Shown here: in pieces, positions 5,518 to 13,638 of the stretch
How the letters are laid out: each line of letters opens with the position of its first letter
Numbering within the stretch: position 1 is the stretch's first letter
Virus record (IMG/VR): IMGVR_UViG_3300035698_003849
Location: 1 to 20,066 of that record
Origin: a virus
Reading direction: 5' to 3' (one strand)
Length of the DNA: 20,066 bases
The notes under the pieces: model-generated
Told to the model about the DNA's origin: nothing
The model's input: only the letters and a program-made list of their open reading frames with translations
The model's database searches: none
Translations under genes and position numbers: made by a program

Positions 5518-7265
5518 TATACTATCAACGCTCCTACGCTATATTGAATCTCGTATCCCTTAAAAGTAACTGCAAATTTATTGTTTACACTTGGTCTAAT
5601 CTTAATAGCTCTCCCACTGACACTTCCAGGAAGGTCTATTTCATACCATTGGTCTTTACCTGCTGTTAAAGTTGCAGTTACTGACGCTTCTGTATTTATA
5701 TCAGTTTGATAATATACAGTTAAAGTAGATTCGGTGGTTACTTCTGCCCTTATATATATTTTGTAGAAAGTCTTTTCATATTCTGGTATCCCTAAATCTA
5801 AATAATCTATCTGGTCGTATGCTTCTATAGCAGAACCGTCATCATCTAAACCCAATAACACGCTATAAACCTGACCTATAGTGTTACTACCACCCTTTAG
5901 CTTTAAACCGTCTGTTCCTCTATCCCATATAGAAAAGCAGGAGAAGCCAAGATTATATACTCCGTAAGACTTGTTTTTCATATCAATCCATATAATCTCA
6001 TTCGGTACAGTCGAAGCACCCTTCGGGTAACAGAGTATATACTTATCATCAAAGTAGATTGCACAAGACAGATGTCTATAAGTGCCGTTTATATTCGTTT
6101 TTATATATTCATTCACCGCTTTACTAAATATTCCGCTTGTCGTGCCGTCAAAATAATTAATCCCGTTTTGACCGAGATAAACAATCAAGTTATCACAATT
6201 TACATAAGAACGCATAGCTACACACCCTTCAGTTGAATAGCTATTCTTAAATTCAAAATTATCTTCATCAGTACCTACTAATCTTTCAATACTGTCTTCT
6301 GTCGCTACAGGTAAAGCGGTAAGCTGTTCAAGTAAGCCAAATATCTTTTGGCTATTACCTGTTCTTTGTCTCCAAAGTGGTGGAAAGTATTCCACGTCTG
6401 AAGTATAAGAAGGATAGAGATATCCGCCATAAGCAAGATATAACTTATTCCTTCGTTTAGCTATTAAGTGAGAGGTTGTAGGTGGTACAGTATGGTTGGT
6501 TTTCGCTTCTGTACCTAAAGTATTATCGGCTTGAATTGATGAATAGGTTTCGGTGGTATTATTATCAACAGCCCCGTCATAATAATAAATCGCACCCCCT
6601 ACAGAGGTACGATAGATATTCTTTGAGGCTATTTTGGCATCAGTAGAATTAACAATGGTCAGAGTAACCTTATCACTTGCCACACATTCTATAGCGTCAC
6701 TAACAGGCGAGGCGTTACTTTCATAGCCGTCCTCATCTACATAGGTATAGCAGTATTTATAATTACCTGCACCTAAACTACCACCTGCACCTGCGGCTAC
6801 ACCTGTAGGTTTGGCAGCAGGCGGAGTAATTCCCATTATACGGGCAAAAGTGCCGTCATACTTAAATACACCATCTTTACCATTGACAAAATAACAGACA
6901 TCTCCAAAGTCGCAAAAGTAGACATCTTGGTCAGCAGTTAAGAGAAAATCAGTCGTGCCTGTTGAATATACAGCAACCCCTGTGTGAGGAGCTGTATCTG
7001 GTAATTTATATATGCCCCTATTCCATGCAACTAAAAATTCCTTGCTTGAGGTGCTGTAATAATAGCGGTGCATACCTGTTATCTTATGTAAAGAACCTGC
7101 ACCTATAGAAGTAAGATTATATTTTGCATATCCTGCACGCTTCTCTAACTGCCCATATTCATTTACTTTTAAGTTATGAAGTCCATCAGGTTTACGTGGC
7201 AGGTTAGCCAATTTATTTTGTGATGGACTTAAGTTATCGAGGGCTTTCCAAATTTGTTTAGCCAT
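5517..7265 (-). CDS. Tail nozzle/hub protein, P22 gp10-like
   Basis: A 582-residue protein. The ATG at 7265 follows a strong site (AAGGAGTGATTT) that overlaps the previous stop. The opening, with LPRKPDGLHNLKVNEYGQLEKRAGY near residues 22-46, is the 'mostly accept the defaults, list with a gene' pattern seen in P22 gp10-type nozzle proteins (packaged-DNA stabilisation proteins). Beta-propeller-like strands follow, interrupted by an Ig/Fn3-like section at about 150-260 (TYVDEDGYESNASPVSD), then more propeller (YLGQNGINYFDG) and a beta-sandwich C-terminus. The adaptor gene lies just upstream in transcription order. In the virion it would form the tube below the adaptor that closes the head and contacts the tail tip. 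The assignment rests on fold-like features and gene order. Confidence 0.75.
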   Translation of the reverse strand: MAKQIWKALDNLSPSQNKLANLPRKPDGLHNLKVNEYGQLEKRAGYAKYNLTSIGAGSLHKITGMHRYYYSTSSKEFLVAWNRGIYKLPDTAPHTGVAVYSTGTTDFLLTADQDVYFCDFGDVCYFVNGKDGVFKYDGTFARIMGITPPAAKPTGVAAGAGGSLGAGNYKYCYTYVDEDGYESNASPVSDAIECVASDKVTLTIVNSTDAKIASKNIYRTSVGGAIYYYDGAVDNNTTETYSSIQADNTLGTEAKTNHTVPPTTSHLIAKRRNKLYLAYGGYLYPSYTSDVEYFPPLWRQRTGNSQKIFGLLEQLTALPVATEDSIERLVGTDEDNFEFKNSYSTEGCVAMRSYVNCDNLIVYLGQNGINYFDGTTSGIFSKAVNEYIKTNINGTYRHLSCAIYFDDKYILCYPKGASTVPNEIIWIDMKNKSYGVYNLGFSCFSIWDRGTDGLKLKGGSNTIGQVYSVLLGLDDDGSAIEAYDQIDYLDLGIPEYEKTFYKIYIRAEVTTESTLTVYYQTDINTEASVTATLTAGKDQWYEIDLPGSVSGRAIKIRPSVNNKFAVTFKGYEIQYSVGALIV

Positions 7266-7275
7266 AAATCACTCC

Positions 7276-7773
7276 TTACAGATGTTCTATTGCTAATTTA
7301 TTAATTTCATTCATACCTCTCCACGTCCATATATTGTGCCAAATGCTTTGGTGTATTTTTTTGGGTATATATATTATAAAATTCTCGCTAATATGATGTC
7401 CTTCATAATTTACAAAGGGTTTATTTAAAGGAATAAAACCTAATTGACGACGTTTTGCTTCTTGTTTTTGAAGACTTAATTTACCTTTTGATGATTGTCG
7501 GTATCGATTAGCAATTACATCACGACGTTCGATGTTATTAATACCCCATAATATATTTTCATTTAATATTTTTTCTTTATTATCTTTATAATATTGCTTA
7601 TTATATTCAATTTTTTTCTCTTTATTGTTTTTACGATATTGTTTTTGATATTCAACTATTTTCCCAGCATTTTTGACACGATATTTCTTATCCCGTGCTA
7701 ATATCGCTTCGTGGTTATTAAGACGATAATTTTTATCATATTCTTTCTTGTCTTCTTTATTTTTATATGGCAT
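7276..7773 (-). CDS. HNH-type (homing-like) endonuclease
   Basis: A 165-residue, very basic protein. The C-terminal part has the HNH-like signature: YEGHHI (123-128), followed by IIYIPKKIHQSIWHN (133-147), with candidate metal or catalytic residues His126, His127, Asn131, His141 and His146. This arrangement (GHHI...YIP..LH...HN.W) is typical of phage-borne HNH nucleases. Residues 9-90 hold several KxYRxxNxEKIxEY-like helical repeats, rich in Lys, Tyr and Asn, probably for DNA binding. It sits alone between the adaptor and nozzle genes, which normally adjoin, as free-standing homing endonucleases often do. Whether it is active, and what it targets, cannot be told from the sequence. Confidence 0.8.
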   Translation of the reverse strand: MPYKNKEDKKEYDKNYRLNNHEAILARDKKYRVKNAGKIVEYQKQYRKNNKEKKIEYNKQYYKDNKEKILNENILWGINNIERRDVIANRYRQSSKGKLSLQKQEAKRRQLGFIPLNKPFVNYEGHHISENFIIYIPKKIHQSIWHNIWTWRGMNEINKLAIEHL

Positions 7774-10615: not shown

Positions 10616-11821
10616 TTAAGCAGGAGTAGAAGCCCCACTTAAAAGTTGTACACCAAATAATCCGTTTAAGACAACTGCTATAAAGTAGGCTTTCCATGAT
10701 ACATAGCTGTAAGCATTGGTTGGGTTGGAAGTATCAGTCGGGCCGGATACTTTGATTATAAGTTTGTCTTTTACGCCGCTTAATCGAGTACCTGCAATAG
10801 CGTGCTTACCGAATACCGGGGTCTGGTTAACAGTTCCACTTTCCGAGTAGAAAGAGAATCCTCTATCAACAGTGGCTTCATGAGCACTTGCGTCGGTAAC
10901 GAGCATGGTAAAGGCTTCGGTATCTTCATACCACCTTACTCCGCCCCATTTTCCGAGTTCGCCGTTCTTGATGGCTTCCGGTGAAGCGTAATGCTGTGCA
11001 TTGACCCAAGCACTATCTTGCATAAAGTCATAGACTACGAAAGGACTCATAATCCCTACGAAGAATTTACCATCATACTTTGGTGCTTTATAATGCTTTA
11101 ATACTGCTACAGCTCTTTCTACTGCTGAACCAGTTACCACATTAGTAGCGGCAAGTCCTTTAGTTACTACGATACGGAAAGTATCAGTGTCACCAGGTGC
11201 GTCTTTTAAGGCTGGTTCAAAAGTGACTACGCCATTAGCGTTTACAAAGTCGGTAACTAATCCTGCATATCCGGCACATTGTCCTGAAGTAAAGATGATT
11301 AATCCGTCATTCCAGAAGTCATTAGCTTCACTTAAACTTGAATAGCAGGTAGTAGTAGTTGCTGTAGTTGCCACTGCATCACTTTTAGCATAAGTGCTTG
11401 AATTATCTACCCTCATCGGATAGAATCCTAAAGACATTGCTAATCTATACCGATAATTAATTGATTCACCCATATTAACACCGGCAAGCATAACCGCATC
11501 TTGAGTAACATCACTATATGAAGTTAATAACAAGGTGTCGAGTAGCTTGATACTGTTAGAGTATTTGGCTGTGGTCTTCTCAAACTCGAAGGCTTCCATC
11601 TCAACAGGAGTAGGATTTGATCCTTCAGTAGTTGCAGCGGTTATTTTTGCAAGCGGTATTAATCGAGTAAAGTTTACGGTCTTACCTTCTTTTTGAGGGA
11701 TATCACGACTATGGTCTGCAAGTTTGTCGGCTACCATTACTGGTTCGGCAAACTTGAGTAACTGTCTGTCGTAATACACCTTCATTAATTGGGTAAGAGA
11801 AGTAGTACTTGTATCTACCAT
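10616..11821 (-). CDS. Major capsid protein, N4-gp56 family
   Basis: A 401-residue HK97-fold capsid protein. The N-terminal pattern SLTQLMKVYYDRQLLKFAEPVMVADKLADHSRDIPQKEGKTVNFTR (about 8-53) is characteristic of the N4-gp56 family: a helix with YYDRxLL, then basic/aromatic strands, then IPLAKITAATTEGSNPTPVEM. The C-terminal half has a conserved-looking AVAVLKHYKAPKYDGKFFVGIMSP segment and a late SYVSWKAYFIAVVLNGLFG helix. It assembles with the scaffold encoded just upstream. The start codon is immediately after an 11-bp inverted repeat whose loop holds the AAAGGA ribosome binding site, so translation may be controlled by that fold. Confidence 0.92.
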   Translation of the reverse strand: MVDTSTTSLTQLMKVYYDRQLLKFAEPVMVADKLADHSRDIPQKEGKTVNFTRLIPLAKITAATTEGSNPTPVEMEAFEFEKTTAKYSNSIKLLDTLLLTSYSDVTQDAVMLAGVNMGESINYRYRLAMSLGFYPMRVDNSSTYAKSDAVATTATTTTCYSSLSEANDFWNDGLIIFTSGQCAGYAGLVTDFVNANGVVTFEPALKDAPGDTDTFRIVVTKGLAATNVVTGSAVERAVAVLKHYKAPKYDGKFFVGIMSPFVVYDFMQDSAWVNAQHYASPEAIKNGELGKWGGVRWYEDTEAFTMLVTDASAHEATVDRGFSFYSESGTVNQTPVFGKHAIAGTRLSGVKDKLIIKVSGPTDTSNPTNAYSYVSWKAYFIAVVLNGLFGVQLLSGASTPA

Positions 11822-12882: not shown

Positions 12883-13179
12883 TTAAAACTTAAAATTATC
12901 CTTTAATACTTGATACAATCCTTCGGATAATCGGTCTACTTGTTCTTCACTTAATTCGTGATTATTATAATTTGTGTCTATACAATGTAATATCTCGTGT
13001 AAAAAAGTTTCTTCGATAACTGATTTTGCTAATATATTTCCACGATATTTTTTACATAAATAGATTAACAATTTATTATGTATAGAAAGCCCTACATAAC
13101 CTTCATTTGTTAAATATCTATCATCCCATTTAACTTTATAAACATGTCCAGCTACCTTAATTTTCTCTGGTATCTTCAT
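12883..13179 (-). CDS. Small HExxH zinc metallopeptidase-like protein
   Basis: A 98-residue protein with a strong AAAAGGGGGATAT leader before the ATG at 13179. It carries the zincin motif FLHEILH (59-65): His61, Glu62 and His65, with Glu78 or Glu79 in ELSEEQVDRL as a likely third ligand. An N-terminal strand pair (KIKVAGHVYKVKWDD) and the C-terminal helix GLYQVLKDNF complete a minimal metallopeptidase, as seen in many phages of Bacillota. It lies between the portal region and the scaffold, where a prohead protease is often encoded. Whether it cleaves scaffold or capsid is unknown; similar proteins are commonly left without an assigned substrate. Confidence 0.78.
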   Translation of the reverse strand: MKIPEKIKVAGHVYKVKWDDRYLTNEGYVGLSIHNKLLIYLCKKYRGNILAKSVIEETFLHEILHCIDTNYNNHELSEEQVDRLSEGLYQVLKDNFKF

Positions 13180-13189
13180 ATATCCCCCT

Positions 13190-13202
13190 TTTATTTCTTT
13201 AT
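13190..13202. repeat. 13-bp direct repeat, copy downstream of RNA element
   Basis: TTTATTTCTTTAT on the plus strand, identical to 13383-13395. The two copies bracket the structured RNA segment. This copy lies immediately beside the ribosome binding site of the zincin gene. Confidence 0.8.
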
Positions 13203-13208
13203 AATATT

Positions 13209-13377
13209 GGTCTCGGCAGGATTATTGCATACCTGCAAGCCTCAAGGCTATTCATCAGCTGTATGGATTCGAGAGACTACTCCAGCGATAAAACGCTAAA
13301 CATGATGTCCTCACCGTTTGGCACACCCCATCATGCGGATACTTTACCCCTAAGCGAGGGTATTCAGTCACAAGACC
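13209..13377 (-). ncRNA. Candidate structured RNA, closed multi-hairpin fold
   Basis: A 169-nt segment filling the gap between two genes. Minus-strand GGUCUUG at the 5' end pairs with CGAGACC at the 3' end (7 bp). Inside are a 7-bp stem CAUGAUG/CAUCAUG (13335-13329 with 13307-13301), and hairpins at 13348-13360 (CCCU/AGGG), 13284-13297 (AGCG/CGCU), 13238-13249 (AGCC/GGCU) and 13216-13236 (GCAGG/CCUGC). The closing stem has a U-G pair on the minus strand that would be a C-A mismatch on the plus strand, so the minus strand, the coding direction, is the likely RNA. By hand count 83 of 169 bases are G or C, clearly more than the AT-rich genes around it. No coding frame with a ribosome binding site is visible. 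I do not recognise an RNA family. It may be a leader of the zincin-scaffold-capsid block or a processed independent RNA. Confidence 0.6.
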
Positions 13378-13382
13378 AAAAC

Positions 13383-13395
13383 TTTATTTCTTTAT
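13383..13395. repeat. 13-bp direct repeat, copy upstream of RNA element
   Basis: TTTATTTCTTTAT on the plus strand, identical to 13190-13202. It covers the stop codon of the 84-residue gene. Removing one repeat plus the segment between (193 bp) would leave an intact stop codon followed directly by the zincin gene's ribosome binding site. Confidence 0.8.
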
Positions 13396-13638
13396 CTTTT
13401 CCGCTTCTTCGCCCTGCTTAATCAACATATCTACCTCGTTAAATATCAAGTCTATCCCTTCTACGCAGGCTTGAGCATAATATATTTTATTCAAGTCTTT
13501 CTCTGTCAGTGCCTTCTGTGTATAATAGGCTTTCTTGTCGTTTTTTAGCTTCAATATATCCTGCCAGCCAGCAGTATTGACCGTAGTCCGCAGGCGGTCT
13601 GCATTGTCTATTAGTGATTTATAATCATTTGTTTGCAT
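13384..13638 (-). CDS. Small helical protein, unknown
   Basis: An 84-residue protein starting at an ATG with a good site (TGGAGGGTAGCC) inside the previous gene, which it overlaps by 28 bases. Mostly helical and charged (LIDNADRLRTTVNTAGWQDILKLKNDKK, CVEGIDLIFNEVDMLIKQGEEAE). No motif identifies it. Its location after the portal suggests a head-assembly or packaging accessory, by context only. Confidence 0.65.
   Translation of the reverse strand: MQTNDYKSLIDNADRLRTTVNTAGWQDILKLKNDKKAYYTQKALTEKDLNKIYYAQACVEGIDLIFNEVDMLIKQGEEAEKIKK

Follow-up and report, generated by a model that had tools for sequence, protein, structure and literature searches.

A divergent manA-like RNA between two genes of the head block of an uncultivated phage

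The closest described relative of the RNA reported here is the manA RNA (RF01745; Weinberg et al. 2010, PMC2864571), for which that study considered cis-regulation certain and a riboswitch probable, and which has figured among the riboswitch candidates from 2010 onwards. The cis-regulatory reading is repeated in PMC9964418 and PMC12197685, and no report of a functional test of manA was found in the open-access literature. The manA RNA is known mainly from ocean phages, from which the phage that hosts the present copy is quite different. A second RNA, wcaG (RF01761), is a cyanophage-associated candidate cis-regulatory RNA whose ligand is not known (PMC2864571); manA is likewise cyanophage-associated, and no wcaG match occurs in the window (i.e. 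the whole stretch of 20,066 nucleotides that was analysed, IMG/VR record IMGVR_UViG_3300035698_003849). The terminase large subunit (TerL) of the window has its nearest matches, at 28-35% identity, in unclassified spring-metagenome phages and in Stenotrophomonas and Pelagibacter phages.

A first-pass annotation had placed a structured RNA at positions 13209-13377, between two genes on the same strand within the head gene block. The RNA indeed lies there, on the minus strand at 13205-13381, in the 204 nt that separate two open reading frames of that strand, 13384-13638 (upstream) and 12883-13179 (downstream). The G+C count of 83 of 169 in the annotated stretch was also correct; for the RNA this amounts to 47%, compared to 38% in the upstream gene, 26% in the downstream gene and 37% in the window. 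No open reading frame of 60 aa crosses the stretch on the minus strand, and a scan of that strand in the immediate surroundings found no usable promoter or terminator. Its features, all on the minus strand, are given below, where L093 and L103 denote the loci of two similar RNAs and R1 the covariance model that was built only from these and the window RNA (alignment A1).

13384-13638, minus strand: upstream gene, an 84-aa open reading frame whose stop codon almost abuts the RNA
13206-13391, minus strand: footprint of the Rfam manA model
13205-13381, minus strand: manA-like structured RNA (footprint of R1; RF01745 match, reciprocal R1)
13372-13379, minus strand: 5' strand of the closing helix, UUGGUCUU, pairing with 13207-13214
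13361-13371, minus strand: conserved segment GUGACUGAAUA, invariant in the window, L093, L103 and the marine copies
13347-13360, minus strand: hairpin CCCU-CGCUUA-GGGG, within the AC/GU pair 13368-13367 / 13342-13341
13281-13339, minus strand: central junction, subtype-specific
13339-13337 / 13283-13281, minus strand: UCC/GGA helix that encloses the central stems
13335-13329 / 13307-13301, minus strand: inner stem CAUGAUG/CAUCAUG, 7 bp
13297-13294 / 13287-13284, minus strand: hairpin AGCG/CGCU
13238-13278, minus strand: long-range helix AGUCUC/GAGGCU (13278-13273 / 13243-13238) with a small inner hairpin CAU/AUG
13216-13236, minus strand: 3' hairpin GCAGG-UAUGCAAUAAU-CCUGC with the conserved GGUAU...UAAUCC, adjoining the closing helix
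13207-13214, minus strand: 3' strand of the closing helix, GAGACCAA, pairing with 13372-13379
12883-13179, minus strand: downstream gene, a 98-aa protein with an HExxH motif (phrog_1233), whose start codon lies 25 nt past the RNA

The annotation had stated that the element matches no RNA class that could be named, and an Rfam scan of the whole window at gathering thresholds did return no matches. In a local E-value search, however, RF01745 aligned to the RNA over its full length (model positions 1-192 of 192) at 45.3 bits with E = 9e-11 (1.5e-12 when computed over the 20-kb record), a score below the gathering cut-off of 55.2 bits, which is why the default scan missed it and why strict Rfam membership does not apply. 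In the reciprocal search over 364 kb, R1 matched 20 of the 25 other manA loci, at E-values from 7e-7 to 0.024, without a single false match, and none of the 18 loci related by the major head protein was recognised. Intermediates are graded: cyanophages and other marine copies score 142-181 bits with the manA model (181 in the cyanophages), the diverged loci L054, L049, L104 and L093 score 82, 77, 70 and 53.5, and the lowest end is formed by the window (45.3), L103 (34.7) and a further locus, L125 (32.9), every score in the series having E <= 2e-9. Judged by these scores, the window RNA is at the diverged end of a manA continuum.

The conserved features of manA that recur in the window are the closing helix beside the 3' GGUAU...UAAUCC hairpin, the GUGACUGAAUA segment, the AC/GU pair with its hairpin, and the long-range helix that precedes the region of the closing helix and GGUAU...UAAUCC. 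The window copy differs from manA in lacking the P1 hairpin upstream of the closing helix, the position of which is taken up by the end of the 84-aa reading frame (the Rfam alignment flags non-standard pairs there), and in lacking the canonical central junction with its GUGGUG loop and ACCA-loop hairpin, instead of which the CAUGAUG/CAUCAUG and AGCG/CGCU stems are found. It also differs in having no promoter of its own, in residing in a phage that is not a T4-like cyanophage, and in the absence of the marine gene context. As the homology is well supported, but the cut-off, P1 and the central junction are not matched, we use the name manA-like rather than that of a strict Rfam member. On sequence comparison, the element is a divergent manA homologue with a rearranged central junction, and the proposal of an undescribed system did not survive; what is known is the manA family, and what is new is a diverged window-type subtype in quite different phages, which has apparently been passed on as a self-contained unit.

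Other routes to an identity gave little. Apart from manA, no Rfam family rose above noise in the window in either the gathering or the local search (RF00044, the phi29 pRNA, included), and neither ARAGORN nor Rfam detected a tRNA or tmRNA; identities as a phi29-like pRNA, tmRNA or tRNA were accordingly dropped. Against named phages, blastn with the window RNA returned chance matches only, and with the L054 and L093 RNAs only short marginal ones. An initial pattern scan that demanded a strict 3' motif gave zero matches; subsequent scans of the viral collection yielded at least 80 marine-type manA loci plus a set of diverged loci, from which L049, L054, L093, L103, L104, L109/L119 and L125 were retained. 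Most matches to a relaxed viral pattern, as well as L146, proved on inspection to be coding or chance. Two strict patterns, which diverged copies could escape, gave 0 and then 2 matches in 84,980 bacterial and archaeal genomes, and these 2 were discarded since neither R1 nor Rfam recognised them.

Folding energy alone is of little help here, as single-sequence folding beats shuffles only weakly and to a similar degree on both strands (z of -1.61 on the minus strand, with 12 of 200 shuffles as good, and -1.76 on the plus strand), which neither proves an RNA nor decides its strand. The comparative data do both. A 46-pair structure was drawn by hand on alignment A1 (window, L093 and L103), in which 94% of cells pair and nine pairs are changed on both sides, compared to 3.3 in shuffles (none of 500 reached nine). 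Slid structures gave at most three such changes, a control that is biased by the structure having been drawn from the same sequences; this bias does not account for the changes on both sides. When 23 sequences were aligned to R1, 133 cells were changed on both sides versus 17-35 in slid structures, the 133 being an upper estimate because the alignment was fitted to the structure. The changes on both sides thus establish a real, minus-strand RNA, as the annotation had held, and the covariation that it had wanted to see in homologues is present in both alignments. Of its suggestions for what would speak against its candidate, a match to a known class was found in the form of manA; the homologues do covary and their pairing is conserved.

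The bulk of the signal in the 23 sequences comes from the closing helix, helix 8 and the 3' hairpin. The closing helix consists of 8 bp including one U-G, two pairs longer than the ends of the stretch at 13209-13377; all eight pairs form in the window, L093 and L103, four are changed on both sides, and the U-G pair of the window is replaced by U-A in L093 and by C-G in L103. All six pairs of the long-range helix vary on both sides over the 23 sequences (97.5% of cells paired), and in the 3' hairpin 100% of cells are paired and the loop is conserved. In the central junction, L093 carries compensatory changes (CCUGAUG/CAUCAGG, AACG/CGUU and CCC/GGG), which include the 7-bp inner stem that the annotation had rightly seen. 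No more than three or four sequences have residues in these central stems (helices 5-7), whose columns are mostly empty in canonical manA, and by this alignment filled central stems are the distinguishing mark of the window-type subtype. Some hairpins picked out by eye or from the minimum-energy fold, AGCC-UUGA-GGCU among them, are unsupported; the relatives back the AGUCUC/GAGGCU helix instead. A possible pseudoknot between the two conserved segments (ACUG/CAGU), spotted by eye, is not preserved in the window, which reads CAAU, and is not proposed here.

Only four sequences of the window type were found (window, L093, L103 and L125, all on contigs of uncultivated phages), and the latter three share the central junction of the window, but sit at other gene junctions. 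The L093 copy is 92.3% identical to that of the window over 182 nt (window 13198-13378), which coincides with the RNA, and no further DNA match exists between the two at E <= 0.01. Leaving aside frames inside the RNA, their proteins share one similarity of 49 residues (49% identical), at the HExxH gene. The L103 RNA is 73% identical to the window RNA, and the TerL proteins are 46% identical. The window copy precedes the HExxH gene, the L093 copy a P22-type portal gene, the L103 copy is situated between tRNA-Met and TerL, and the L125 copy follows a gene for a single-stranded DNA-binding protein (SSB). With boundaries this exact and surroundings that are unrelated, transfer as a unit is favoured, although conservation alone could maintain 92% identity. 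Just upstream of the L093 RNA (minus strand, ~5880-5925), a long palindrome is followed by a T-run; this terminator-like element resembles a stop of upstream transcription before the RNA begins.

The RNA is absent from 20 viral contigs related to the window by the major head protein and from 16 relatives of L103 (some of these 36 are fragments, in which the junctions present are empty and the situation elsewhere could differ), and a portal-based search for relatives of L093 returned L093 alone. Genes that flank the RNA do occur without it: the HExxH gene (68-69% identity) has no RNA in front of it in two relatives of the window (L003 and L011), the 84-aa gene lies directly or nearly adjacent to the scaffold-like gene in L004, L007, L009, L010 and L014, and TerL is present in near relatives of L103. 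As judged from these contigs, the RNA is an accessory unit, found at different gene junctions of unrelated phages and missing from the phages most closely related to its carriers. The HExxH gene itself is mobile in the head block, being located before the scaffold gene in the window and L003, and between TerL and portal in L011/L012.

The marine copies look different in their immediate surroundings. Among the matches listed, a sigma-70-like promoter (at most 2 mismatches of 12) precedes 48 of 49 unique copies, against a background of ~3% in Markov-shuffled sequence, and the single exception is L093, the window-type copy that the pattern also caught. This promoter is near consensus (TTGACA-17-TATAAT/A), its -10 end mostly 24-36 nt from the conserved GTGACTG. 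The next recognised gene is gp32 (ssDNA-binding protein), on the same strand and 39-104 nt downstream, in 59 of 80 loci among the matches listed (L022-L101); as these were chosen by pattern and are mutually related, and at least 80 exist, this share is not a family-wide rate. The literature searched held no description of an association between manA and gp32. Among the matches listed, the next open reading frame is on the same strand in 41 of 45 copies, and of 50 unique copies only 2 had a downstream terminator in the terminator scan. In twelve annotated cyanophage genomes, gp32 is the neighbour only in P-HM2; the RNA directly follows the major head gene gp23 in five, and in others it is near talC, pstS, purL or ferredoxin/carbamoyltransferase.

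Certain arrangements show that manA need not have a protein gene in cis. In L098 and L100 the order is promoter, RNA, terminator, second promoter, gp32; in L072 (4359-4617) a promoter and manA are followed a few bases downstream by tRNA-Asn; and in P-TIM68 the gene following manA is convergent. Downstream of manA at L098:9627-9805, the intrinsic terminator is CCTCC-ATCTA-GGGGG-T8, and with the second promoter before gp32 the RNA forms a separate transcription unit.

Taken as a whole, a manA homologue that is carried as an accessory unit and acts as a co-transcribed, self-contained module is, somewhat better than evenly, the best explanation of the window copy. The best sigma-70-like promoter upstream has 4 mismatches of 12 in the window, 4 in L093 and 3 in L103, and without a good promoter the RNA is probably expressed with its operon. 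The window copy, having neither promoter nor terminator, would thus be transcribed with the head-operon mRNA and, between the 84-aa and HExxH genes, would fold into a domain of its own. That the module itself acts in trans, or on the transcript or the general transcription or translation machinery, we consider an even chance; it would be hosted in late or replication operons, in the former much as phage tRNA genes are, rather than serve as a switch for the following gene. A module is favoured by neighbours that are unrelated to one another, by exchange of the RNA in one piece, by its gain and loss and by the arrangements in which it stands alone, and to this reading the score under the gathering cut-off and the missing P1 and central GUGGUG/ACCA loops are counter-indications, as is the leader-like look that the frequent gp32 position and the rarity of terminators (both among the matches listed) give to the marine copies. 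More tentatively, manA RNAs in general might be portable, self-contained phage RNA genes with a shared trans-acting or transcript-level function, rather than metabolite switches for metabolic genes of host origin; just as tentatively, their carriers would comprise T4-like cyanophages and otherwise unrelated phages with P22-type portals.

A cis-acting leader, possibly riboswitch-like, that detects a ligand or protein and regulates the next gene at the level of translation or transcription (here the HExxH gene and possibly the scaffold and capsid genes, in many marine phages gp32) ranks below the module, yet is a serious possibility. It is the published reading (PMC2864571), and the promoter upstream, the same-strand gene downstream and the gp32 neighbour of most marine copies listed agree with it, as does the start codon that follows the window, L093 and L103 copies after ~20-40 nt, which equally weighs against a module. 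On the other hand, manA-type copies do not share one kind of gene whose 5'-UTR they would occupy: the genes downstream are unrelated (HExxH, portal, TerL, gp32, talC, purL, carbamoyltransferase, tRNA), and near relatives keep the HExxH gene or TerL without the RNA. As to an expression platform, base pairing between the RNA and the Shine-Dalgarno region is inconsistent (mean pairing 0.04-0.66), and the window copy has no downstream terminator. The mRNA leader of T4 gp32 is an autoregulatory pseudoknot. Many marine copies among the matches listed occupy this leader position, a likeness by position alone, whereas the window copy is not adjacent to an SSB gene. A divergent subtype that moves as a unit among unrelated phages weakens the metabolic-riboswitch reading in particular, and the near-universal marine promoter, the frequent gp32 neighbour and the few copies with a terminator or tRNA make specific experiments possible.

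The role in head gene control or packaging that the annotation had suggested fares far worse. Like phi29 pRNA, the window element is a phage RNA of ~170 nt in the vicinity of packaging genes; the terminase-portal-scaffold-capsid block houses the copies of the window, L093 and L103 alike, and five cyanophages have manA after gp23. A packaging RNA, or one essential for head assembly, is nevertheless highly improbable: the RNA is missing from all 36 contigs related to the carriers, which together with the HExxH genes lacking it also argues against gene-specific control; the three copies use three different junctions, most marine copies listed adjoin gp32, the family as a whole sits beside unrelated genes, and RF00044 matches neither in sequence nor structure (the scan at the gathering threshold gave no match, and neither did the local search, run to E <= 10). 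Least probable of all is a chance fold or a gene remnant, which the modest folding energy would allow and the comparative data refute, given the pair changes that no shuffle reached, 1-nt and longer indels between relatives that are incompatible with a reading frame, the lack of a 60-aa minus-strand frame and the independent manA match.

The diverged locus L049 carries, on an 80-kb viral contig that also bears a manA-like RNA, a tmRNA gene predicted by ARAGORN (10941-11374, minus strand). In the tail region of the window, a lysine-rich 165-aa open reading frame (7276-7773, minus strand), which matches only PHROGs of unknown function, may be a candidate HNH-type homing endonuclease.
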